Shown piece after piece: positions 3,001 through 62,960 of a stretch of 64,000 nt of DNA. Below the pieces are notes generated by a model. The model worked only from the letters and a program-made list of their open reading frames with translations. It was not told the origin of the DNA and did not search any database. The stretch is from assembly GCA_017562135.1 (NCBI GenBank), contig QEYB01000526.1, forward strand, positions 62,001 to 126,000. The letters run 5' to 3'. Positions within the stretch are counted from its first letter, which is position 1. Every line of letters begins with the position of its first letter. Source of the DNA: Dipylidium caninum. Lineage: Eukaryota; Platyhelminthes; Cestoda; Cyclophyllidea; Dipylidiidae. Made by a program: the position numbers and the translations under genes.

Positions 3001-6000
3001 TAAAGCTCACGTGTATTCTGTTGCTATGATCGCTCCTCAGAGTTATTAAGCTGACTGTTCGCGTCCTCATCTCTTTACCCTATTCTATTGACTTACTCGA
3101 GCAACTCTTATTACTCCCACCGTGAGGCCAATTAGGTTGAAATATTTGATATTCCAACCGCTCCCCAACAAACAGGTTTCTTTTCGACTTCGCGAACTCT
3201 TTAAAAGCAGTTTTAATTCATTGTCTTGAGTCGTTTGACCCCCGATATGGTCGCCTCGACGTTGAGCAACACAGGATGCTCAGAAAGTTCAATGAGAGCA
3301 CATTCACTTGTTCATAAAACAGGTCTTTCGTTATAACGCGCCTGTCGGACAGAAGTGCCAATTTTTTCGCCTCGAATTTTGCTCTTCCCGCGACGCTCGT
3401 CCTTATGAACATTTGGCATTATTATTTCCCTTTTTCTTTTTTCAGACTCTTTTCGTCTCGCGAGACTATCTTCGAGCCTTACGATTAGACGAACTCAAAA
3501 GTAGTCATCCTATAGAGGTTCGTGACGACCTGTATTATTCCCTCAATTCAGATTCGTGGTTTTTTTTCAATATTCTAACTTCTGTTGCCTACGTACTTTT
3601 AAATGGGTAGAATAAGGCGATCCTGTTCTCTTTTTTGCAGGTGGAAGTGAGCAGCCCTCATGAAGTTGAAGAAATTTTTGACGCAGTGTCCTATCAGAAA
3701 GGCAGTTGTGTGATTCGTATGCTTCACAACTACATGGGGCCTCCGGTGAGTGCTAAAATACTAACCTTCATGCAATATTCCTCACTAGAAAGCACTTGTT
3801 TGCCCCTTATTTTCCCTAGTTGAGTGATTTCTCCTCTCCGCTAATTTGCTTCCACCTCCTTTCCTCTTCCAGTTGTTTGAAATGGGACTGAAGTCGTACA
3901 TTGAGAAGTTCAAATACGGAAACGCCCGAACCAACGATCTGTGGGCTGCGCTGGAGGAGACTGGACTTGAGAAGTTGACTGAACTCATGTCCCTGTGGAC
4001 CAAGCAGACCGGTTACCCGGTGGTCTTCGCCCGTCTCGTCCACGCTCACGACGGAACGTACAGCATTGCGGTCAAGCAGAAACGTTTTTTGGCTGATGGA
4101 AGCCCTGATAAAGGTTGACATTTCGTTTTATTTTGCTTCTGGCTGTGAATTAGAGTCCTTTGGTGAAGTTATGCGACCCTCCTTTACCATCCTTTGATTA
4201 TCCTTCTGCATTTTACGCCTTCATTTTGGTGGGTGCTGGAAGTTTTCTGGCGCATCGCTTGTTTCTGTGATCTGCTCCTCATTTTTAAATTTACTTTTTT
4301 TTACCGCATAGACAATCCGGTGACGTAAAACGATTTTATTGTTTTTTGCCTTGACGCCTTGTCTGTACCGTTCATTTCTCCTTTGGCATTTTCTATCATC
4401 ATCATTTAGATTAACGTTTCCAACAAAATTAATGAATGAGATCGTAGGTGGTATTTCCTATTGATGTGTAATTAACTGATTATGATCCCTCCGTGTCTTT
4501 TTTTTCAAATAGCTACAAAATTATGTGTTCTTGGATGTTTAGACGACGCGTCAGTTTACTGGCGCCTTCCAATTAACGTCTGCCCCGTGGACGATTCCGA
4601 AACACTTCTTTTGCGCAAAGTCACCAACCCGCCGGCGTCAACCCCCAATCACGGCGACAAGGATCATGTCGAGGCGGGGGCTGTTGCCGAGCCGGCCGAA
4701 GTCCTCTACCCCTGCCCGACTCAGCCTTGCCCCTGGTCCGTCTCAAACCCGATGCCATTGACTTTTACCGTGTGCACTACGACTCGCCTATGCTCAACGC
4801 CATCCTGGAGGCCGTCGCCAAGGGGACCGTGCCCGAACGGGATCGGATCAGTCTGTTGGACGACCAATTCGCCCTTGCACGGGCCGGTGTGCAGGACTTG
4901 GCCCGGGTGCTGCAATTCTGCCGAGCATTCGCTGGCGAGATGAAGTACAGTGTTTGGTCGGTGCTAGCCCAGGGACTCGCCCAAGTTCGCACCTTACTGG
5001 AGGAGGCGTCGTATCCAGCCGGTGATGAAGTCGCTTTTCCGGAGATGACCAAAGAGCTGTGTGGTCTTAACAAGCTGTACATTGAGCTAGCGTTGCCGGT
5101 TTATGAGAAGATTGGTGAGTGTTCAATGCTTTCACTTGATCCAACGTTAGAGACCTGCGGATGAGAAGGCGTTTAACATTGTAAATCTTGGAGGCGTCGT
5201 TTTAAGTATGCATTGCGAGGATTCTGCAATCCTTGACCTCTCCTTTTTCTTTTTCCTTCATGGAGGCTTTGAGCCCAATTCTGATGACTCCAACAACGTC
5301 CGTCTCCTTCGGCCCATCATCATCTCCATCCTCGGTCGTGTTGGCCACGGCGGTGTAATTTCAAAAGCCCGAGCTGCCTTCGACCGTCACTACGAGGCTG
5401 TGACCTCCGTCCCAACGAGCCGAGCTACGGTGGACCAGGCAAAACTCATCTCTCCCGACCTTCGAACTGCCATTTACTCCATTTGTATGCGCAATGGCGG
5501 AGATGCGGAGTTCCAGAAGCTCTTGGAAGTGAGTTTGTGATCAAAACTGATTACTCAGAATTAGGTGACTAGGCGGTGGGAGGATACATTTGTAGGTAAA
5601 TACAGTGACAATACTTTGTTTCTCTCTATTTATCTTAAATGGGGGGTGAACTTGAATCAACTCCGGGCTGTTTGAGAAAGGTCAAAACTAGAAATTTCAT
5701 GGCGTTTCAGTTTGAGTACAACTTTTTGCTGTAAAGAGGGCACCGACAGCCGGTGGAGGAGGAGGAGGCCACTACTCGGAAAGCCGCGAAGGCAAATGTC
5801 AAACGTCGTAGATTTGTCTCATCATCCGCTCCAATGGCAGAGGAGATGGAGCCTAGAGAAGCCTTAGATGTATGCCTGGAGGATTCAACAATTTCTTTCT
5901 CCATAGCTCCACGACCGAGCGACATTGAACGACGAGCGTGTCCACGTCCTCTCCAGCCTCGGGGCCACTTGCAACCCCAAGATTATCGCCCGCCTCTTTG

Positions 6001-7529: not shown

Positions 7530-8551
7530 CAAAGCTTCATGCGGAGAGGCGAAAGTCGCCAACGGTTGAGCGCGAGGCGCATCGATGAGGCGGGCGAGCG
7601 TCCGTCGGCACGTGCCACCACTCGCAGTGCCCCTCTCCCCGCCTCCTCGCCCACCGCCTCTCCCTTCCCCGCCAGACTGAAATGATGTCTCGACTGCCCT
7701 GCTGCCTCACCCACCCACACGAGGCTTCTCGACCACCGTGCCCGCCTCCGCTCCCGCCCCGCCCCGCCTCCCCGACAACCTTAGTGGGCGCTTAGACAAC
7801 CAGCTGCCGTCAACTGTCGCCCAACGGCAACAGATCGGTGGCAGGGTGACGTGAGGGGCGGGGAAGGGCGAGGGGCGAGGGGCGAGGGCGAGGCGAGGGG
7901 AAGTCGCGCTTGTCCCGACACTCTGAGCAGCAGGACAGCCAGGCGGCACAGAGACGAGAGTCGCCCATCGAGGAGGCGTTGGTGGCGATGGCGTGTGGTG
8001 GTGGTGGTGGTGTGGTGGTGGTGGTGGTGGGGATGGTGGATGGACGCAGGAGAGCCGCAACCCACGTGGTGTCGTTCACGCCACTGGGGAGGCGAGGGGG
8101 TGGGGTGGGGACGAGAGTCGAAGTGGCGGCAGGGCAGGAGGGGGGGCAGGGGGAGGGGAGGGGAGGAGCGGGGCAGAGCGAATGAGGGCATGAGGGAGAA
8201 AAGCGCGTCGGACACGCGGACGACGCACGCAGTGGACGAGTCGGCGGACGAAAGCCTCCACCCACCTCAACTGTCAACAGACACAAGTCTCGACGGGCGC
8301 GGGACGCACGCGGTCCGCATGCGTCGTCGACCAGGTTGGCCGACGGTGTTGGACGTCGACGCGAGCGCATTGACGCACGCGTGCGACTCGTGCGCTTATG
8401 GCGACTCGCAGTCGTCCTGTCAGCTCGTGGCATCTGCCCGCCTCTGCCCCGCTCGTCTCGCCTTCTCGCCGCCCCGCACGGCTTCTGTTGCACCCACGTA
8501 CAGCTGCTGCGACCCGTCCGCGTCTCGCCTCTCCGCGCCGCTCCCCTCTGC

Positions 8552-8582
<31 letters not shown>

Positions 8583-8802
8583 TCGATGGTCCACGCGGTG
8601 GACACGACGGCTTGCCACGATGGCGCGTCTCCGCCTCGCACCGCCAAGTGCGGGGGGGGGGTGGAGGCGTGTTGGGCTCTCGCCTTTGTTTACTCACACG
8701 CAAACACCAAGAGGCGAAGAGCCACCGTGCAGCGCAGCGGCTGTTGCCTGCGCCGCAACTCCCCTGCCACTGCGTCGCCGTGCCTCACCACGACGACCTC
8801 GT

Positions 8803-8838
<36 letters not shown>

Positions 8839-9118
8839 GGAGGCAGGCAGGCAGGCAGGCACCGAGGCTCGGTTTCCACGCAGAACCTCGCCGAAGATGG
8901 GCGGTGTTTCACGCGACCCTCCACAGTGGTTTCGGAGGGTTTGGAGTCAACCTGGCACGAGGGGTGGTGGGGCGGTGCAGTGGCGAGTGCGGTGCGGTGC
9001 GGTGCAGTGCAGTGCGCTGTCCTGCGGTGTCGTGCGTAAACAGGCCTTTCGGGCCTCCCACGTGGCGTGTTTGGCGCTCCGAAGGGGAAGCCGCCCCGGC
9101 GATCAAGCTTTCCCGTTG
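7530..9118. repeat. Inverted repeat 1, left arm
   Basis: This GC-rich block reappears as its reverse complement at about 11524-13040. The match can be followed from the stretch around 7585-7620 (paired with 12965-13005) to the stretch around 9030-9115 (paired with 11527-11605). Both arms contain the same order of simple repeats: GGT triplets near 7996-8030, GCC triplets near 8550-8580, ACGC tetramers near 8804-8838, AGGC tetramers, and GCGGT/GCAGT pentamers near 8990-9015. Long frames are open in several registers at once, which is expected from the base composition, so I do not call genes here. The outer ends are approximate. Confidence 0.9.
8804..8860. repeat. ACGC and AGGC tetranucleotide microsatellites in the left arm
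   Basis: Tandem ACGC units run directly into AGGC units. The right arm has the complementary tracts at about 11800-11853, interrupted differently, so the two arms have slipped independently. Confidence 0.85.
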
Positions 9119-11523: not shown

Positions 11524-13040
11524 ACGGGAAGCTTGATCGCCGGGGCGGCTTCCCTTCGGAGCGCCAAACACGCCACGTGGGAGGCCCGAAAGGCCTGTTT
11601 ACGCACGACACCGCAGGACAGCACTGCACTGCACTGCACCGCACCGCACCGCACGCACCGCAACACCCGCCTCGCACTGCACCGCCCCACCACATCCCTC
11701 GTGCCGAGGTTGACTCCAAACCCTCCGAAACCACTGTGGAGGGTCGCGTGAAACACCGCCCATCTTCGGCGAGGTTTCTGCGTGGAAACCGAGCCTCGGT
11801 GCCTGCCTGCCTGCCTGCTGCGTGCGTGCCGTGCGTGCGTGCGTGCGTGCGTTGCGCACGAGGTCGCCGTGGTGAGGCACGGCGACGCAGTGGCAGGGGA
11901 GTTGCGCGGCGCAGGCAACATCGCTGCGCTGCACGGTGGCTCCTTCGCCTGGTGTTTGCGTGTGAGTAAACAAAGGCGAGAACCAACACGCCCTCCCCCG
12001 CCCCCCGCCGCTTGGCGGTGCCATCGTGGACAACCGAGGCGGTGGCGGCGGCGCGCGGCGGGGCGGTGGCAGGGGAGCGGCGCGGCGCGGAGAGACGCGG
12101 ACAGGGTTGCAGCAGCTGTACGTGGGTGCAACGGAGCGTGCGGCGAGACGGCGAGAAGGCGAGACGCGGGGCAGAGCGGGCAGATGCCACAAGTTGACAG
12201 GACGACTGCGAGTCGCCAATAAGCGGACGAGTCGCACGCGTGCGTCAATGCGCTCGTGTCGACGTCCGACACCGTCGGCCAACATGTCGACGACGGCATG
12301 CGGACCGCGTGCGTCCTGCGCCCGTCGAGAACTTGTGTCTGTTGACAGTTGAGGTGGGTGGAGGCTTTCGTCCGCCGACTCGTCCACGTGCGTCGTCCGC
12401 GTGTCCGACGCGCCTTTCATGCCCTCATTCGCTCTCCCGTCCCTCTCCCCCCCTCCCCTCGCCCCTCCTCTGCCTGCCACTTCACCCCACCCCCCCTGCC
12501 CGCCCCCAGTGGCGTGAACGACACCGCGTGGGTTGCGGCTCTCCTGCGTCCATCCACCATCCCCACCACCACCACCACCACCACCACCACCACCACCACC
12601 ACATCGCGACACCGCCTCCCTCGATGGGCGACTCTCGTCTCTGTGCCGCTGCCTGGCTGTCCTGCGGCTCAGAGTGTCGGGACGGGGCACGACTCCCCTC
12701 GCCCCTCGCGCCCTCGCCCCTCGCCCTTCGTTCCCCGCCCCTCACGTCACCCTGCCACCGATCTGTGGCGTTGGGCGACAGTTGGACGGCAGCTGGTTGT
12801 CTGCCCACTAAGGTTGTCGGGGCGGGCGGGGGCGGAGGCGGGACGGTGTGTCGAGAAGCCTCGTGTGTGGTGGGTGAGGCAGCAGGGCAGTCGAGACATC
12901 ATTTCAGTCTGGCGGGGAAGGGAGAGGCGGCGAGGAAGGAGGCGGGGGAGGGGGCACTGCGAGAGGTGGCACGTGCCGACGGACGCTCGCCCCGCCTCAT
13001 CGACGCACCTCGGCAACCGCTTCGCCGCATCAAGTTTAGT
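11524..13040. repeat. Inverted repeat 1, right arm
   Basis: This is the reverse complement of the 7530-9118 block, with many small differences and unequal microsatellite lengths. For example, the CCA tract at 12560-12603 differs from its left-arm partner, and the left GCC tract is much shorter here. The arms are therefore old or fast-evolving rather than a fresh duplication. The inner border is sharp near 11524, where the match to the left arm stops. Confidence 0.9.
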
Positions 13041-25704: not shown

Positions 25705-26735
25705 CGACGAGGTCGAGCTCTGGAAGGTGCGCAGTCGAGTGAACGCTGGTCCGCGTCTGTCCACGTCCAGCCGCAACAAAGGGGTTGGTGTGCGCGTTTG
25801 TGTGGCATTGCATGACTTCGCATTCGCCTCCGATGATGTGCCACGCCATTCCATGCCATCGACTGCTGTCCTTCGCCTCTTGTCCACGCGGCGCGGCGCG
25901 GCGCGGCGCGACTCGCCTCTTCTCTCCCCGGACTGCCTCGCCTCGCTCTCGCCTCGCCAGGCTCGTCTCGTTTCTCCTCTTCGTCCTCCTCCCTCCTCCC
26001 TCCCTCCTTTCCGCCCTGCCTCCTGTCCTGCCACGCATGCCCCGCCTCGTGACGACTTCCTCGTCGGCCACCACGCACCATGAAGACGACGTCGGCTGCA
26101 CCAACCGGTTGTAGAAGCGTGCAGGGCGGTGGAGGTAGCCGAAGAGATGCCATCACCACCAACCTCCACCACCGACGCCATCATCGACGCCTCTATCGCC
26201 GCCATCGTTCGCCGCGCCTCTTCCACTCGCCCACTGCGCCTCGCCGTCCACGTGGTGGCGGCGTGTATGGCGAGGTTGCCGAGCCCCTCACCGTCGTGCG
26301 AGTGTGGCAAGACGAGGCGTCTCGCGGGTGTGGACAGCGCGTGAGGCGACTTTCCACGACCGGACCACTTGTCAGCTCTTCGCGTGTCCGGCGAACTCGC
26401 ACCGTCTCCGACTGCCAAGCGACTGAAAAGGGGCTGGCGATGAGTTTGGTGCTGCCAACGAACCTCCGTCCAGCTCGTCGAAGTGGGCGTCGAGGCTGCA
26501 ATTCGCGTCCCGATGCAACGTCGAGTTGGTTCTCGGTGGCCACCACGGCGACCGTCCACCTCGCCGACCTCCGCTCTCGAGGCCTCTTTCGACGTGCAGT
26601 GACGGCGTCTGCCGCCGATCACGAATTCTCGACGAGTTGATCGCCTTCGTCGCGATGAGCGCCAGACGCTCGACTGCCTCTCCACCTCCATGCCACTCTG
26701 TTTTCCTCTCCTTCCTCAAAATCGTCTCCAGACGC
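25705..26735. repeat. Inverted repeat 2, left arm
   Basis: This GC-rich block is repeated in reverse complement at about 32085-32715. Matches can be followed from around 25705-25800 (paired with 32600-32715), through 26030-26165 (paired with 32230-32355), to 26600-26735 (paired with 32085-32190). The left arm has about 410 bases (26170-26580) with no partner in the right arm, so either an insertion here or a deletion there. Frames are open in several registers because of composition, and I call no gene. Confidence 0.88.
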
Positions 26736-32084: not shown

Positions 32085-32715
32085 CGATTTTGAGGAAGAA
32101 GAAAAAAAGTTGCTTGGAGGTGAAAAGGCAGTCGAGCGTCTGGACCCTCATCTTGACGAAGTCGATCAACTCGTCGAGAATTCATCGTCTGCGGCAGACG
32201 CTCTTTCCGCAGGTCCAAAGAGGCCGGTGATGGTGGTGGTGATGGCATCTCTTCGGCGACCTCCACCGCCCTGCACGCTTCTACAACCGGTTGGTGCAGC
32301 CGACGTCGTCTTCATGGTGCGTGGTGGGCGACGAGGAAGTCGTCACGAGGCGGGGCATGCGTGGCAGGACAGGAGGCGGGACGGAGGGAGGGAGGGAGGC
32401 GACGAGAAACGAAGAGGAGAAACGAGACGAGCTGGCGAGGCGAGGCGAGGCAGTCGAGGGAGAGAAGAGGCGAGTCGCACCGCACCGCTCTGCGCCGCGC
32501 TTCGTCGACAGGAGGCGAAGGACAGCAGTCGATGGCATGGAATGGCGTGGCACAGCATCGGAGGCGAATGCGAAGTCATTGCGATGCAACGAAACGCCGC
32601 AACACAAACGCGCACACCAACCCCTTTGTTGCGGCTGGACGTGGACAGACGCGGACCAGCGTTCACTCGACTGCGCACCCTCCGAATCTCGACCTCGCCG
32701 ACGAGGTCGAGCTTG
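32085..32715. repeat. Inverted repeat 2, right arm
   Basis: This is the reverse complement of the 25705-26735 block, minus its 410-base middle part. Together the arms enclose a loop of about 5.3 kb containing the whole Wnt gene and its promoter. The two arms differ by scattered substitutions and small indels. Confidence 0.88.
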
Positions 32716-53905: not shown

Positions 53906-55424
53906 CTCCCGATCCCGGGTTCCGGGTGTTTGAATGCTCCGTCACTCGGTGACCGTATCGATTGCGGCGCTGGTCATGTGGACCACTTGAACCGGGACGC
54001 CTGCACCTCCTCCGGCGCAGGCGCCGACGTCGACGCATCCGCGTGGTGGTGGAGCAAGTCCTCCACCACCTGTTCTCCGCTTTGTCCGGCTTCGCGGGCT
54101 TCACTCATGTCCGGTGAAGCAGCGCGGGCGGAGATGGGAATGGGCAAGTCTTGCAAGGAATTTGAGTCCCTCTACAGCAGCGACCTCTCTCCGGACACAC
54201 GACTTGAAGCCGAATGCGCTTCCAGCATCGCCTTCCAACCTGTTCCGGGTTATATGCCCAGGGGACAGTCGTGAAGGCGGCTTTTTTAGGCCAAACCAAT
54301 AAACATGGAAGATGCACTGTGACGTCTCCCCTTTGAGCCACCTCACCTGGCGTGGCGCTCGAAGGCGATTGGGCATTCACAGGTGGTCCTCGGGCCCGCC
54401 GGGAGGGGAGGTGATGCTCCCTCCTCTGTCTCTCCTCACGTACAGATCGACACTTGGTCCACTCGGATAGAGGCTTTGCGAAGTTGGAGGAAGTGGCCCA
54501 TTTTTAGTTTTTAGCTGTCCCAACCGACGCGTCACTACTGCCGTGGTTTGGTGTGATAGTGTAATGGTGACGGTGATGCCAAAGGGCTTTCGTCTCGACG
54601 ACGATATTTTTGCTACGTATCCGCGTGATCGTCGCGTTACACCCACCTCGTGTGGGCGACCGGTCGGTGGTGGTGGGGGTGTGCTTGTCCGGAGGGGGCA
54701 ACAGGGTGTCCGGGTGGCCTGCGGCTCATTAATACACCGATTGGACAGGACACTCTAACCTCCGACTGGAGGAATGCTAGGGGGTTCAAAACATCCGACC
54801 CGTGCTTCGGTTCTCCGAGCCCAAGGGCGTGACGGCGAAATGCCCCTTTCCTGCTCCATAGTGGGGAGACACTCGACCCCGACAGAGGCGAGTGCGTGCG
54901 CGTCAATCATCCATCCGCCCATCCATTGCACTTTCCTGCCGCAAAGACCCCAAAAGTCGGCGTCGTGTGACACTGACAGCGGCTGTACGCGCGACACATA
55001 GTGCCGCACCACCTGGCCTCATCGGCATCGGAGCGGAGCCTGCCCTGCGAAAGCGGGTTCAGTGGTGAACATCTGCTGAACAATCCCTGACGCGCAGGCG
55101 GTCGATTCGCCTTCAGAACCCCAGTTCAGTGAGAGAACTTCAGGCGGCGAAGTGGACCCAGACCATGTGCCATTTGGGTATTCGAGAAATACTCTATTTA
55201 CCAGGCGAGCACACACTTTTGCGCTTCCAGCCGCCCAAATTCATTATCGACTGACGAAAGCTCGAGGTGCCACGACAGCCTCGGGGCTTCTCATCGCGAA
55301 AATTGTGGTGCCGGTTTCGTTTAACTGCGAGGCCTTAGAGCCCGTCCAAACCCTCGGCCCCAACTCCGCTCGCAGCACAAGGCACTGCTGTCAACATTTA
55401 AGGTTATCCTTTATTGAGGGAGCT
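53906..55424. other. Interval upstream of the second intronless gene
   Basis: Promoter region. Two short frames overlap on opposite strands: 53930-54274 (+, 114 codons, followed by AATAAA near 54297) and 53974-54156 (-, 60 codons). One of them could be a small gene or leader exon, but neither has a recognisable motif. From 54400 to 55400 I see nothing. Confidence 0.35.
55410..55415 (-). terminator. Polyadenylation signal of the minus-strand AsnRS paralogue
   Basis: TTTATT on the plus strand reads AATAAA on the minus strand, about ten bases after the stop at 55425. An intact signal supports a transcribed gene. Confidence 0.6.
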
Positions 55425-57530
55425 CTAAGGCCTGTATTGGTGCTCGAAGCGGGGATACAGAGGGACCTCCTGAACATTGCGCTTGCCCATAAACCAGGCG
55501 CAGAAGCGTTCCAAAATTAACCGGTAGCCCCCGTGTGGACAGGTACCAAATTCGCGCTACGATATAAAGTGGAGAGCATAAAGTGGCGGAGGAGGGGAAG
55601 CGAAGCGGTCAGAACCAACCTACCAGTTGCGTGTACCAGTAGCAAGTAGAGGCGTCGATACCAGCGAGTTTGTAGCGCTCCATTAAGTCGCTGTGATTCT
55701 TGACCCTCATTGCACCTCTCACAAGTCCGCCTTCTTCTGGAAGTATGAGGTAGAAGGACTGGGTCACAGTTGGATCGTCTTCGACGCACTCCGAAGTAAA
55801 TGAATCTATTTGCGTTGACAGATGTATAACAAAAGAGGGAACTGATGAAGATATTCGCTGAAGTCTCCCGCTGTTTAAGGCGCGGTGGGCTTCTTGTTTT
55901 GAAGAAAACGCCCTACCCTCGGCGGCCAAGTTAAATTCCACACGTGCGAAAGGCTTCTTTGGAACTTGAAATCTCTACATTCTCACAAATTCATAAAAAC
56001 CAATTGGAGTGTAACGTCAATGCACCAAAATGGAAAAAACTCTCACAGGATTCATTTCCATTATCAAGTCTCCACACCTCCGCATTACGCGTTCCACTAC
56101 GTCTACTATGAGATCCTCCACCTGGACAAAAAGATCATCGAAAGTGATAAAAGGTGATTCCGCCTCAATTTGGATATGCTCATCCAGGCCACTATGAGAA
56201 GGACTCCCAAACTACAAAGTAGGGCGACAAAATAAAATTTATTAGAAGCCCTGTTGATGCCTCCATTACAACTTATTATAGGTTATAGACAAAAAAAGCA
56301 TAGTACGAAATGGTCCGCTCGTAAATACAACCGACAAAGCCATTGAAATCAAACGTGACGAAAATTCCACCGGCACAAATCATGATAAAACTATGCAAAA
56401 CCACCGATTCCACACAAAATATGTGTACGTTAACAGAGGTTGTGACAACATTTTAAGACAACGTATGGTCCATTGCATTTTCGACCAAATTAACTTACAC
56501 TTGAGTTGTTGTAGCTGCGTGAGATGCAGTAGCAGTTACCCAAGACGGGAATGCACGACTCCAAATAGACCTGACTCGACTGAGTTAGGCGTGACTTATT
56601 TCCGGCGTAGTCCACATTAGCCAGAGGCGAATCTTCGTGCATTTGATGCGCCACCAACGTTGGAGGATGTATCTACAACACATCACCCCTCACTAACACT
56701 TCAAATGGCATTTATTACAATATCAGCCAGTTATCCGCATCTCTCGATTCACACGCTTGTAATTACTTGCCTCTGCGTATCCGCGATCCTTGTAGTGATC
56801 TCTGAATGCCTCCGTGATTACGGCTGTCAGCTTTATTACATTTGACACTTCCGTGGTGCGAATCATGAGGTGACGGTGATCCGCCTGCCAATCCATCGTG
56901 CTCTTCTCCGTAACGTAAGCTTCAACACCGCCCGCCGGTGCCTTTCCAATGCATTCCCAATAATCCACCTTCACTTCCACATTTCCGGGAATATTTTGGT
57001 CATCTGTCACTTCATTAACAACCCCCTTTACGTAAATAGACGATTCAGTGCAGAGGGTCAGGGCGTCAGACGTTCGTGACAGATCTCCAGTCAGAAGACA
57101 ATGAACAATACCAGTACCATCTCGAAGAATGATATACATTACATCCTTGCTCTGACGACGTATTTTGTATGCCCAACCAAACACTTTAACACGCTCGCCC
57201 AAAAATTTTTTTAAATTTACACACTTTTACGACAGTTGCATTTGGCAGACTACCGTCTTCCTTGATTTCCACTGCATCTGTAATAGAGGCATAGACTGTA
57301 GGCGTTTCGTTGCCTGCCTTGTTTAGAGACTGTCTGTAATCATTATAAGAACGCATAAGGATATCTTGGGGATATTCAATCCACTCCGATTTCTCATGAG
57401 TATCAGTGTAAATCACCTCCTTTGAGGGATCATCGGTGTTTAGAATTTTAAATAGATGAGGGGAGAGTTTGAAACGGATATTCCTTTGAACCATCGCCAA
57501 GTATATCGTCTCCCAGCCTTTCAGAAACAT
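55425..57530 (-). CDS. Diverged asparaginyl-tRNA synthetase paralogue lacking class II motif 2
   Basis: Exons 55425-55556, 55624-55974, 56047-56211, 56499-56672 and 56771 to about 57530 mirror those of the plus-strand copy at 60545-62960. The 5' end was not fixed. The N-terminal OB-fold anticodon domain is well kept (RVKVFGWAYKIRRQSKDVM, then ILRDGTG). The catalytic half is not. Motif 1 IHPPTL remains, but the VEGGST substrate loop has become HQMHEDS. The motif 2 arginine segment ([16 protein letters not shown] in the other copy) has become SYNNSS joined to a Ser/His/Gly stretch. In motif 3 the glycines are changed (GYRLILERF), although the ER is kept. Frames stay open throughout except for one extra A in a seven-base A run (57206-57212). 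This looks like a pseudoenzyme rather than decayed DNA. AATAAA follows the stop within about 10 bases (55410-55415). Confidence 0.85.
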
Positions 57531-57539
57531 AATAAGTCA

Positions 57540-60500
57540 TTATATCTGCATGTAAAACGGAGAACACGGTCATCAAAAAGTTTAACTTAGAAAAAGATAT
57601 ATTAGAGAAACTACGAACAGAGAATACGAACCACCGAAAAGAGTCATGGCGATAATTAATAACAGCGTGCGATTACAGCGCGCTCGACTCAACTACTAAA
57701 ACAAATGCTAAAAAGACGGAAAGAGACCTAAATGTTCGCGACTTTATACAACTTAATACCTACAATACAACGATTGTATGAACAAAATAACATAGAGGCG
57801 TCAAATAATGGAAACGCACAGATGATGTTAAAAAAAGGTTGCTTCATCCAACGAGAAGCTTGTTGTGGATAATCTATAAGGTTGCTCCACTTCGCGCAAT
57901 TAGAAAAGTCAAGCAGCTTAGATTCCCTAAACCAACTGCCATTAATTTTTCGTTGTATTGCCATTCGTACACTTGCATAAAATCTTACGTACTGGGGAAG
58001 GATTGGAAAGATTTGCCGATCAGCCAACTCACTTAATCATGCCAATCGTTTCAATTATGACCCGTGTATAGTTAATGACACGATTAGGCATAAATTGAAC
58101 TGGCGGAATGAGTCCCACCATTGCCGTGTAAACATAGAGAGTATACGAGGCGAATTAAACAAAGCCCACTTGTTTTACTCGCTGAAAAAGCAGTTTAGTC
58201 TTTAGGAACAAACTGATTCGAATCGAATCGACAGGGGACTCTTCAACAGAGTGATGAGTTGGTGATTTGAGGTTGGAATTTAAACATTTCTCTTCCACAA
58301 GGTGTACAATGACGGTGGTTCCGGCGGTTGGGTGACGCCGCTTGCCATGGCCAATCGACTGGGGTTGTCGGTTCAGAGGCTCCGCTCGGTAGTCGACCTA
58401 ACCTCCTGCATACTCCTCCCTGACGGCACAAAGTGATCTGGCGATGCGGAGAGCGTCTGCTTACAACCTCGTATCTGCATGTCTGCCCGCGTGTATGAGC
58501 CGACTTTGCGCCCTTCGTCGTGGAAGATCTGGCTTGACAGCCTGGTTCGAGGGCAGACAGTGCAGTATGCGACTCCAGCGCGCCCGTCCGAACTATTAAA
58601 GCAAAACCTGTAGGGCTGGATAGACGTGCAATGTACAATACATATACACTTTTCATGTCTAAAACACATGATTGAAGCAGCATTAGGGGAAAGGAACGAA
58701 ACACGAAAGATAGGTTCAAATGTTATAGAACAAAATAAGTTTAATCCTTTCACCGACTCATTCAACTACATAAACACACGTGCCCTCGTCCACCGACGCA
58801 TTGTCCGCCCCCCCCCCCCCCCACCGGCAAACTTGGGCATAGCGGCAGAAGAAGGCAAGGCGCGGGCGGGCCTTCACACCACTCACCTCCTTCAATGTCC
58901 TCGAAGCGTGCACGAGTGGAAACACCTTCCACGCCTCCACAATACCACCGCCGCAGCCCTTCACCTGCCCGCCAGCCAGCATCGCCGCCGGTTCACGAGA
59001 CGCCCACGCTCGCCGAGCCGCCCCCACCGGTGAGGCGGTAAATGTGCCGTCTCGCGCGAGGTGATGCAACACCGAGTCCTCGTTTCGTCATCCCCGCCGT
59101 GCATCCGGTCTGCGTCATTCATCCGGTGACACGTCATTTGACCTGCGTCGCCGGTCGTCGGCCGCGACCTTACAGCATCACGCTCACCGAACAACTTCCA
59201 CGCGCATCTACTCACCACTCGCCTCTCACCACCCGCGACTCTCTCGCGAATCTCCTCCCTCTCCCCACGGCTCGATCGCTGGCACAGGCCCAAAAGGTGG
59301 CAATCCCGACTCGCTGGTCAACACGTGTGACGGGGACAACGAAGAAGCCAAAGTGGGTGGACCAAGAGCCAACGCAAACCCCCATTCAGTGCGCTCCACC
59401 CACGTCCCTTGTGTACTGCTTGAAACAACATTCGGTTCTGCGAAATAGGTTCCGCTAATGGGCAGGCAGAGATGATCTGGAGACCCAAATGAAATCCCAC
59501 TTATTTTGCGACCCTACTGAGTCTCCCTCCCTCACCGTCATTCTGAATCGTGGAGACTGTAACAGCGTGCGAGTTCCGCACAAGACACTCGTCCACAAAA
59601 TCTTGCAACTTTCTATCCCACTGGCAATTATTAGGTAGGATGGAGAGGAAAAGAGGCGGATTCCATTGCCTGGTTGCATTCTATTTTGCGGCTATTTACT
59701 GCTTATTTGTCCGTCTTCACCCTTGACAACAGTTACATTGGACAACGCGGTGGAGGGCAGAGTGAGCACCGACGATATCGCGTGTGGAGCGGCTGCGCGT
59801 TGCTCGTCTAGTGCCATTAGACTAGGCGCGTGGTGGGAACACCAGAAAGAGACGCGGGCTTACAGTCTGGTACATTGGTCTGCGACGGGGATGGCTCACG
59901 TGGGGGACAGGGAATAGCTCAACGGCCCATCAGGGTGCAAAACAGATTTTATGCGAAAGAGATCTGTGTTGAGACTTTGAATACTTTTCAGTTCACAAGA
60001 TGAAGATTAATTGTGCAGTGAATTATAATCGCCTTGGGTTTTCAGATAGTAAATAGTGTGGTGACACACAAAATGGAAAAGATATGTGCCAATGCAATCA
60101 ACGATCTGAGGAACTTGCACGAACATGAAAGTGATAACCGCCTCTTGAATTATTGAAAATGTGTAAGAAGAAGGGCTACAGATGAGGAAAGAAAGAGTTC
60201 GCGAAGTAGACGGATACGGCGAATTGGCAGCAGGCAATGGCCATCTGTCTAGGCGTTGGCAATGCTCAACAAACTACTTTTTCTCCTGAAAAAAAAATTA
60301 GAAATGTACAAATGCTTAAAATTAAGAACAGACGAAAAAGACCGAACTCTGCTTACGTTTTAGTACGAAAATAAACTTTTGTTCTACTGGACTGGCGTAG
60401 GCGGGAAGTTGTTCGGCAGTCTTGCGTAGTCGCTATGACAGGGGTGGACGATCAATCAGGTCAGACGAGGGTATTATTGGTCCCAAATTGGAATCTCGTT

Positions 60501-60540
60501 TACATACTTCAGATGATTTGTGACTATATTTACCCAAATG
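57540..60540. other. Divergent spacer between the two AsnRS copies
   Basis: About 3 kb that should contain both promoters and the unlocated first exons. No other gene is supported. A 15-base C run lies at 58808-58822. A CT-rich, long-open stretch at 59042-59458 (+) has no recognisable feature. Confidence 0.4.
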
Positions 60541-60544
60541 CTGT

Positions 60545-62197
60545 ACACGTGGACTTATCATGAGGTAAAAATTTTGACATTTAGGAAATTTAACCGACAA
60601 GGCAGGCGACGGCAAATCTACGCTTGTCAGTTGTGCCAATGAGGCTGCGGTTGTCGAGAAGAGCAAGGGTTGTTGCGACGCGGCCAGGGTGAAGGTGAAG
60701 GATCTGTCAAAAGTCATTGGTAGCCGCGTGAAGGTGTACGGTTGGGTACACACGATTCGTCGTCAGAGCAAAAAGCTCATGTTCATCATCATTCGCGACG
60801 GTACGGGTCTTCTGCAATGTCTGCTCACAGGGGACCTGGCACAAACGCCCTCAGCGTTGACTCTGTCGACGGAGTCGTCTGTCGTTGTGACGGGCGAAAT
60901 CACGAAAGTGCCGACCGGTCAACAGGCTCCCGGTGGCATCGAGCTGCAGGCGGACTACTGGGAGTGCATCGGGAAAGCGCCCGCAGGTGGCATCGAGTCG
61001 GTGGTGACGGATGAGTCGGAGGTGGATTTGCAGCTGGATCAGCGGCACCTGATGCTGCGTACGTCGAAGGCGTCGAAGATCGTGAAGCTGACTGCCATAA
61101 TCGCGGGAGCATTCAGGGATCACTACAAGGATCGGGGCTTCACGGAGGCGAGTAAATGGGAGGGTGTGGAGTGTGAGGCGAGGCTAGAGGTGGTAACGCT
61201 GTGTGTGTGTGTGTGTGTGTTGTGCTGTGTTGTAGATCCACCCACCAACACTGGTGCAAACTCAGGTGGAGGGCGGTTCGACGCTGTTCAAGTTGGACTA
61301 CTTCGGCGAGCCGGCCTACCTGACGCAGTCGAGCCAGTTGTATTTGGAGACGTGCATCCCCGTGGTGGGTGACTGCTACTGCATGGTGCGCAGTTACCGT
61401 GCTGAGAAGGTGAGTTGATGGGGTGTGTGTGTGGAGTAGTGGGTGGAATGCGTCCAACTGTTTACATCGCCTTGCATGCTCATGTGAGTAGGAGGTGTGC
61501 TCAGGTGGGGAAGGCTGCAGTGGCAGTCGTAGTAGTAGTTGTTGTTGTGGTATTGGAGCAGGCACGTCGGCCATGTGCTCACTCACCGGTTGAAATGAGA
61601 TTGCGCAATGGCGGAGAAGTTCGGAGCAATTGGTGCGCGAGGTCAGAGATTTGTGTGATGCACGTTGGCAGTTGTAGCAGTCGCGATGTTAGTTGTTGCC
61701 GTTTATATCGGCGTGTGAGTAGGGAGAAAAGGAGACATGTGAGGGCGAGGTGGAAGGTGTGTGCGCTTGCAAACCGACCGGTTGGTGGTTGCCGACTGGT
61801 GAGCAGAGAGCAAGCGAGATGGAGCGAGGTATCTCATAGTTCTGTCTGCTCGTCGTCGGGGCAGCCAGTCTCCATGATTCCCACAAGTGTTGGCGCCTGC
61901 TCTCCTTTGGTGTCGTGAGTGGGGCATGTGAGGCAGAGTGATGTGGTGTGGTGGTGGTGGTTGTTTCAGAGTCGGACTCGTCGTCACCTGTCGGAGTACA
62001 TCCACATAGAGGCGGAGTCTCCGTTCATAACGTTCGAGGATCTGCTGGAGCAGGTGGAGGACTTGGTGGGTGGACGTGTCGGAGCGCGTGATGAGGGTGG
62101 CTGGGGAGCTGTTGTTGGAGATCAACCCCGTAAGTGTGGCATTTCTCCTCTTCTCGTCCACTCATACATGCACCCATGCATGCACGCATGCGTGTTG

Positions 62198-62228
<31 letters not shown>

Positions 62229-62960
62229 AGGTGTGGTTGTGGTTGTTGATGCTTTTGTCTTGGTGTTTGGGCAGAAATTTGAGGTTCCGAAGAAGCCCTT
62301 CAGACGGTTGGAGTACCGGGAGGCGTTGGCGGAGTTGAAGCGCCTGTCGATATGGAAGGAGGACTCGAAGCCTTACGAGTTCGGAGATGACATTCCGGAG
62401 TTGCCGGAACGCAGGCTGACAGACACGCTGAACTGTCCCATATTGTTGACAAAGTTCCCGACCGAGTTGAAGTCCTTCTACATGCAACGGACGAAGGAGG
62501 ACGCGGCAGTGACGGAGTCGGTGGACTTGTTGCTGCCGGGAGTGGGTGAGATAGTGGGCGGCTCGATGAGGATGACGGCGCATGAGGACCTGTTGGCGGG
62601 CTACAAGCGGGAGGGAATCGACAGCACACCCTACTACTGGTACACACAACAGGTGGGTGGTTGTTGGGCCAGACTGCTTCTCCCCTCGTTGTGTGCCCCT
62701 TTCCTCTTCCCCTTCTCCTTTCTCCCTTGCCGCTTGCCTCTGCCGCTTGCCCCGTGGTGAGGCGGGAGCGAGGTGACGAGGTGGTCTCGTAGTTGTCATT
62801 GTGTTTTTGTATTTTGTGTGTGTTGTAGCGCGAATTTGGGACGTGTCCACACGGCGGCTACGGACTTGGCTTTGAGCGATTTTGCACGTGGATGTTGGGT
62901 CAGTACCACATTCGCGACGTGTGCTTGTACCCCCGATACACCGGTCGTTGTAGGCCTTGA
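60545..62960 (+). CDS. NARS1: Asparaginyl-tRNA synthetase, cytosolic type (5' exons not found)
   Basis: This class II synthetase charges tRNA-Asn with asparagine. Exons: 60545-61147, 61236-61409, 61970-62129, 62275-62652 and 62829-62960. The OB-fold anticodon domain ([17 protein letters not shown], then [12 protein letters not shown]) is followed by the catalytic domain: motif 1 [24 protein letters not shown], motif 2 SYRAE and [10 protein letters not shown], and motif 3 [10 protein letters not shown] near the C-terminus. All catalytic residues expected of AsnRS are present. The first intron in this stretch uses a GC donor. The 61970-62129 exon is 160 bases but must be a multiple of three. 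One extra G lies near 62071-62073, after EQVEDL, as comparison with the paralogue shows. The exons encoding the N-terminal extension upstream of 60545 could not be placed. Confidence 0.95.
61148..61235 (+). other. GC-AG intron in AsnRS
   Basis: Only a donor of the form AG followed by GCGAGT puts the two flanking exons in the same frame and gives an uninterrupted match across the conserved RGFTE / IHPPT junction. The minus-strand paralogue has the same intron at 56673-56770 with the ideal GCAAGT donor. A GT dinucleotide microsatellite at 61201-61220 lies inside this copy. Confidence 0.8.
62201..62228. repeat. GT dinucleotide microsatellite in an AsnRS intron
   Basis: About fourteen perfect GT units lie between the motif 2 exon and the next exon. 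Confidence 0.9.

Follow-up and report, generated by a model that had tools for sequence, protein, structure and literature searches.

An apparently dead relative of cytosolic asparaginyl-tRNA synthetase shaped by purifying selection in the tapeworm Dipylidium caninum: a possible pseudo-subunit

The sequence studied (the window) is the stretch of 64,000 nucleotides at C904:62001-126000, and the genome searched comprised 106 Mb in 920 contigs. Two genes resembling asparaginyl-tRNA synthetase (AsnRS) lie head to head in the window, A on the minus strand and B on the plus strand, and a third copy, C, is found on the same contig past the end of the window. Their parts are as follows, in window coordinates except for copy C:

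57545-55425, minus strand: gene A, five exons
56771..57545, minus strand: A exon 1, which opens UNE-N (ATG at 57540) and runs on through the linker and the OB fold, with a GC donor after it
56499..56672, minus strand: A exon 2, entry to the catalytic domain and beginning of motif 2, where Asn stands in place of the invariant Arg
56047..56211, minus strand: A exon 3, remainder of motif 2, with both Arg of TRRH lost
55624..55974, minus strand: A exon 4, in which the acid loop is deleted or replaced and the SVD/GEI segment has lost its Asp and Glu
55425..55556, minus strand: A exon 5, motif 3 with its Arg kept and two Gly replaced, then the C-terminus and the stop codon
60585..61147, plus strand: first recognised exon of B, linker and OB fold (PF01336, 7.1e-15), lacking UNE-N, with a GC donor
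61236..61409, plus strand: B exon 2, a recognised exon
61970..62129, plus strand: B exon 3, its frame shifted by one base near 62.07 kb when compared with C and with the counterpart of B on contig C528
62275..62652, plus strand: B exon 4, with the same sequence as in copy C
62829..62960, plus strand: B exon 5, intact motif 3 and stop codon
C904:127823-130413, minus strand: copy C, a full-length AsnRS with UNE-N, 1.8-4.4 kb beyond the end of the window

The head-to-head pair with common exon borders that a first-pass annotation of this DNA had described was confirmed: A has five exons and B five recognised ones, the internal borders of A and B correspond, and an unusual GC donor after exon 1 is common to A, B and C. 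The same annotation had taken the plus copy for the normal enzyme, and this part did not hold. The first recognised exon of B starts inside the linker, and a search for a UNE-N-like stretch in the 3.2 kb preceding B gave nothing better than E 0.16 over 11 aa. As UNE-N is present in C and absent from B, B was rejected as the normal gene, and the full-length AsnRS is the third copy, C, which is inverted relative to B. B and C are 98.3% identical over 2.2 kb; identity reaches 100% in exon 4 and over the stretch of exon 3 that was compared, 95.7% in the OB portion and 94.4% in exon 5, and the linker of B found no match in C. Judged from the sequences, this pattern resembles the outcome of gene conversion or of a partial duplication of recent date. 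The searches of the contigs of this genome listed no further complete cytosolic AsnRS.

Other features of the window and of the assembly were recorded alongside. Two more inverted repeat pairs are present in the window (7573-9116 with 11524-13012, 86%; 25705-26161 with 32234-32700, 88.7%), so that the AsnRS pair is not the only inverted duplication here. At 1152-1817 and 4577-5164 the plus strand carries exons of an M1-family aminopeptidase (PF01433, PF11838). Rfam at gathering scores and a search for tandem repeats of score >=150 both returned nothing in the window. Copies of COX1 occur on contigs C637 and C471, of 27 and 37 kb, the one on C637 being read with the flatworm code; the usual tapeworm mitochondrial genome is shorter than either contig. 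The COX1 of C637 had its best matches in cyclophyllidean tapeworms, at 89% (Cloacotaenia, Taenia, Echinococcus), with neither Mesocestoides nor Dipylidium among the names listed; together with the AsnRS comparisons given below, this places the worm near Taeniidae.

To describe the active site of A, 169 alignment columns were taken as reference, each of them invariant across 22 normal AsnRSs of origins ranging from flatworm to mammal; C keeps 164/169 of these residues and A 111/169. By region, the residues kept in A amount to 10/11 in UNE-N and the linker, 23/28 in the OB fold, 12/17 in the motif 1 region, 12/17 in the LTQSSQ segment, 10/19 in motif 2, 11/13 in the helices after motif 2, 0/8 in the acid loop, 10/22 in the [18 protein letters not shown] (SVD) segment, 7/10 after the [18 protein letters not shown] segment and 16/24 in motif 3 with the C-terminus. 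When pooled, UNE-N/linker, OB fold and motif 1 keep 45/56 invariant residues, against 36/73 for motif 2, acid loop, SVD segment and motif 3 (catalytic versus other regions, Fisher p 4e-4, a descriptive value because the region borders were set after viewing the alignment). In the numbering of C, the changes in motif 2 and TRRH are R311N, R318P and R319S, R311 corresponding to human R322, and the motif 2 part encoded by exon 3 is two residues longer than in the normal enzyme. The acidic residues of the SVD/GEI segment are changed (D451Y, E459G), as are the glycines of motif 3 (G505R, G507I), where the Arg is kept. Expressed as human equivalents, A has lost R322 (motif 2) and G519 (motif 3) and has kept R522 (motif 3), and it has no equivalents of R534 and R545; G519R is among the disease mutations placed near the active site of human AsnRS in passages of PMC12513289. 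The pocket for ATP and the amino acid is lost and the OB fold is kept. Hence the replacements announced for the minus copy by the first-pass annotation were all borne out (motif 2 Arg to Asn, acid loop at 0/8, motif 3 Gly to Arg and Ile), as was its retained OB fold, which matches Pfam PF01336 at 3.9e-9 even with Tyr and His in place of its conserved Phe and Gln. That A is a dead enzyme is, in our judgement, nearly certain.

The relationships of the three copies were examined by protein comparison. The AsnRS proteins closest to B are those of Taenia asiatica and Hydatigera (80%) and of Taenia crassiceps and Echinococcus (78%), and next come those of Anoplocephala (75%) and of Schistocephalus and Hymenolepis (74%). 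When A was the query, nothing closer than 53% (Taenia AsnRS) appeared among the 120 of 544 matches listed. The cytosolic AsnRSs of Taenia and Echinococcus, at 52-53% identity, have UNE-N, the OB fold and the class II catalytic domain in the same order as A, but their active site is intact where that of A is lost. In a tree of 17 AsnRSs, A, B, C and four taeniids form one clade (99/98), in which A, on a long branch, groups with the Taenia/Echinococcus AsnRS (97/98) apart from B and C; the linker of A is likewise closer to Echinococcus in appearance. A simple inverted duplication giving rise to A and B, as had been assumed, is therefore unsupported, though a tree uniting the three copies is still compatible with the data (p-AU 0.057). 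Should A truly group with the taeniids, it may come from the gene that taeniids still use as an enzyme and B/C from an older paralogue that took over here, which is a lead and not a result.

A second sequence of the A type allowed selection to be measured. Contig C528 (22 kb) holds the A-B pair a second time, diverged but again head to head, and its A-type copy is called A'. Over 502 codons, A and A' differ by a dS of 0.200 and a dN of 0.043, giving a dN/dS of 0.214 (bootstrap 95% 0.143-0.311) for this single pair of A-type copies, on which the dN/dS claim stands; the differences fall 25/15/70 by codon position, and exons 2-5 alone give 0.223 (0.116-0.41). The values were obtained by Nei-Gojobori, a simple method, after codons touching an indel had been dropped and one codon with a stop in A' had been excluded. 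As a yardstick, the comparison of B with its C528 counterpart gave 0.124 over 435 codons. When changes were polarised with C or with the dispersed copies described below, those specific to A fell 5/3/15 by codon position and those specific to A' 4/5/14, 10 further differences being ambiguous and 55 not polarisable. Along exon 1, synonymous and nonsynonymous changes numbered 7 and 0 in the UNE-N stretch (21 codons) and 13 and 17 in the linker (78 codons), that is 20 and 17 upstream in UNE-N plus linker, compared with 16 and 10 downstream in the OB part. Donors and acceptors of all four introns are kept in A and A', the GC donor included. Identity between the two is 92.6% in exons, 81.9% in introns, 76.1% upstream and, past the end of A, 90.2%. 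At 54500-55400 of the window, directly after A, the identity to C528 is 90%, above that of the introns of A (82%), and no gene was identified in this stretch.

The quality of C528 has to be kept in mind in reading these figures. Within the codons compared, A' has indels at 15 positions and a single stop, and C528 contains two A genes that face opposite ways, of which the second (A'') is A' with many small indels. A'' was considered as an independent third sequence and rejected, since 78 of the 83 codon changes that separate A' from A are common to it and it differs from A' mainly by indels. Owing to the indels and stop of A' and the far more numerous indels of A'', C528 looks like a poor-consensus or fold-back assembly. 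Combined, these results indicate that the protein of the dead enzyme A has been under selection since the split of A and A', and A has very probably been a selected coding gene over most of that time. The dN/dS test on the minus copy that the first-pass annotation had suggested thus gave a value that is not neutral, and by this substitution test A is not a plain pseudogene.

Fragments of the A type were also found at about 64 places on 46 other contigs (for example C102, C788 and C700); they are decayed and have introns. The number is a lower bound and counts matches to A or to one dispersed copy, clustered at 3 kb, weak ones included. Some contigs hold two to four such fragments, spaced about 10-25 kb apart. 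Dispersed places listed by both searches gave higher scores with A than with B; the one exception noticed lies near 42 kb on C102 (40.8 bits with A, 42.0 with B). Stop codons are present in 13 of the 15 dispersed loci examined. Within the OB exon, to which the codon-position counts are confined, the loci's own changes are evenly spread (250/220/196, a pooled and descriptive count, as the 15 loci are taken from the 64 or so places and are not independent, C102 and C419 being 99% alike), whereas the changes of A since its separation from the dispersed copies are 67/62/126. This contrast, with the dN/dS of 0.214, supports the earlier proposal of a pseudoenzyme kept for another role. In the copy on C342, motif 3 reads GGQRLNFER and has the Arg that replaces the first motif 3 glycine in A, which suggests that copies were made after A began to lose its active site. 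On this sequence evidence, one A-type lineage appears to have stayed under selection as many copies decayed.

AsnRS is a homodimer. We propose, with a probability of about 0.4, that A is a dead relative of cytosolic AsnRS kept by purifying selection as a non-catalytic heterodimer subunit with a working AsnRS. According to this proposal, A would encode, or would until recently have encoded, a catalytically dead relative of the cytosolic enzyme, which would pair with B and/or C and would either contribute the UNE-N and the tRNA-binding surface that B lacks or tune its partner; tRNA binding by A, and any effect on charging, are presumed. That partnership in a heterodimer is the main role of A is a tentative conclusion, held at slightly less than even odds. 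One precedent comes from human AsnRS, of which an inactive chain forms heterodimers with normal chains according to passages of PMC12513289; the other is SLIMP, the partner of mitochondrial SerRS2-alpha (passages of PMC10570016). Passages of the same paper name residues at or near the human dimer interface, and of six that could be mapped A keeps five (M236, G509, Y539, R541 and F542), R545 being lost. Against a heterodimer stands the loss in A of the equivalents of human R534 and R545, both in a C-terminal segment said in passages of PMC12513289 to help dimerisation.

A stricter form of the proposal is that A and B are two halves of a heterodimeric cytosolic AsnRS, A carrying UNE-N and the tRNA-binding part with a dead site and B providing the only active site without UNE-N. 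The model for this is the mitochondrial SerRS, which is split between SLIMP, a dead synthetase paralogue (passages of PMC9437257) that has the tRNA-binding domain, and a catalytic subunit that has lost that domain (passages of PMC10570016). The pattern at the locus is complementary, B having kept the active site and lacking UNE-N and A being the reverse, and both are constrained (0.124 for B). Since C has both UNE-N and an active site, A and B need not be complementary, and a split is not needed for a working enzyme here. By analogy with SLIMP/SerRS2-alpha, such a split might have arisen a second time, in the tapeworm cytosol and from a head-to-head pair; we consider this two-halves arrangement, the second origin included, unlikely.

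The main rival to a pseudo-subunit is a UNE-N-based or tRNA-binding regulator: A would act unpaired, as a free-standing regulatory or signalling protein, through UNE-N or the OB fold, with tRNA-Asn or a second protein as one possible binding target. The strong retention of the N-terminal part fits this role (10/11 invariant residues in UNE-N/linker; 7 synonymous and no nonsynonymous changes in the UNE-N stretch), and there are indications from elsewhere, as UNE-N may have non-enzymatic functions (passages of PMC12513289) and a filarial AsnRS acts on host cells (PMC4709172). However, most dimer residues are kept and exons 2-5 are equally constrained (0.223), neither of which a role for UNE-N only would need, and we regard a free-standing regulator as rather improbable, though less so than the explanations that follow.

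The first two of these concern the reading frame, for which the first-pass annotation had claimed that it is open across five exons. This was found for exons 2-5, which have no stops, and for the OB part of exon 1, but exon 1 has two one-base frameshifts, near 57.465 and 57.21 kb, and as assembled UNE-N and the OB fold stand in different frames. A' continues in frame at the first shift. The second lies in an adenine run between linker and OB fold, where A' is out of frame too. This shift has three readings: inheritance, an error made in both sequences, or correction during expression. One-base frameshifts also occur elsewhere, one in B (exon 3) and one in C (exon 2). Cytosolic AsnRS is essential, and as no other complete one was listed, at least one of the shifts in B and C is probably an assembly error; those of A may be assembly errors as well. 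The shift shared with A' lowers the odds that A is an intact gene today, which we nevertheless hold to be somewhat the better bet, and it is the main weakness of the case.

On this evidence A could have been selected until recently and now be dead, the frameshifts being real and the low dN/dS a memory of past constraint. The two exon 1 shifts, of which A' has the second at the matching position, and the dozens of decayed relatives of A speak for such a recent death. Yet the changes specific to A are still distributed 5/3/15 by codon position, exons 2-5 are free of stops and the splice sites are intact, A' is in frame at the first shift, and the essential enzyme's own copies B and C bear one-base shifts of which at least one is probably an assembly error; recent death is accordingly given about one-half of the weight of the pseudo-subunit and is an unlikely explanation. 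Alternatively, the shift shared by A and A' could be real and be corrected by polymerase or ribosome slippage, part of the product then being the dead synthetase and the rest UNE-N alone. The same adenine run is shifted in A and A', and constraint is seen on both sides of it, but long-read assemblies err at adenine runs and C528 is full of small indels, which makes slippage highly improbable. The least probable explanation is a gain of another small-molecule activity such as asparagine synthesis, in the manner of the AspRS/AsnRS-like asparagine synthetases: the switch is known in archaea and bacteria (passages of PMC9437257) and the archaeal proteins 3p8t and 1nnh match copy C, but both are absent among the 34 sequences listed with A as query, and AS-A keeps ATP use and is without a tRNA-binding domain (passages of PMC9437257), the reverse of A.

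The proposed pseudo-subunit can be compared with known systems. Dead synthetase paralogues are a known kind, HisZ being another example. SLIMP resembles A as a synthetase paralogue with an ablated active site and a retained tRNA-binding part, and SerRS2-alpha resembles B as the partner that has the active site and has lost its N-terminal domain (passages of PMC10570016 and PMC9437257). In contrast to A, which is derived from AsnRS and known from sequence alone, SLIMP is, in those passages, derived from SerRS and mitochondrial, with a heterodimer shown by experiment; the tapeworm genome, unlike the SLIMP system, also holds the full-length copy C. Human NARS1 R534* (passages of PMC12513289) is like A as proposed in being a dead AsnRS chain still able to pair with normal chains, but it is a disease mutation that poisons its partner, whereas in A the active site is changed much more, most of the C-terminus is kept, and the protein has been selected. 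Extra AsnRS-like genes of unclear activity in parasitic worms are already on record in passages of the helminth genome paper PMC6498573; these count catalytic-domain matches, and mention in them was found of neither active-site ablation, nor a selection test, nor a head-to-head pair. An AsnRS-derived pseudoenzyme in animals was not found in the literature searched (open-licence PMC papers only).

Helminth AsnRS counts that are made with catalytic-domain profiles (passages of PMC6498573) may include inactive copies. Dead synthetase paralogues under selection show the recruitment of an essential enzyme to other work. If A and B pair, the division of a synthetase between one catalytic and one non-catalytic subunit would have happened more than once, and the AsnRS locus would provide a compact test of it.
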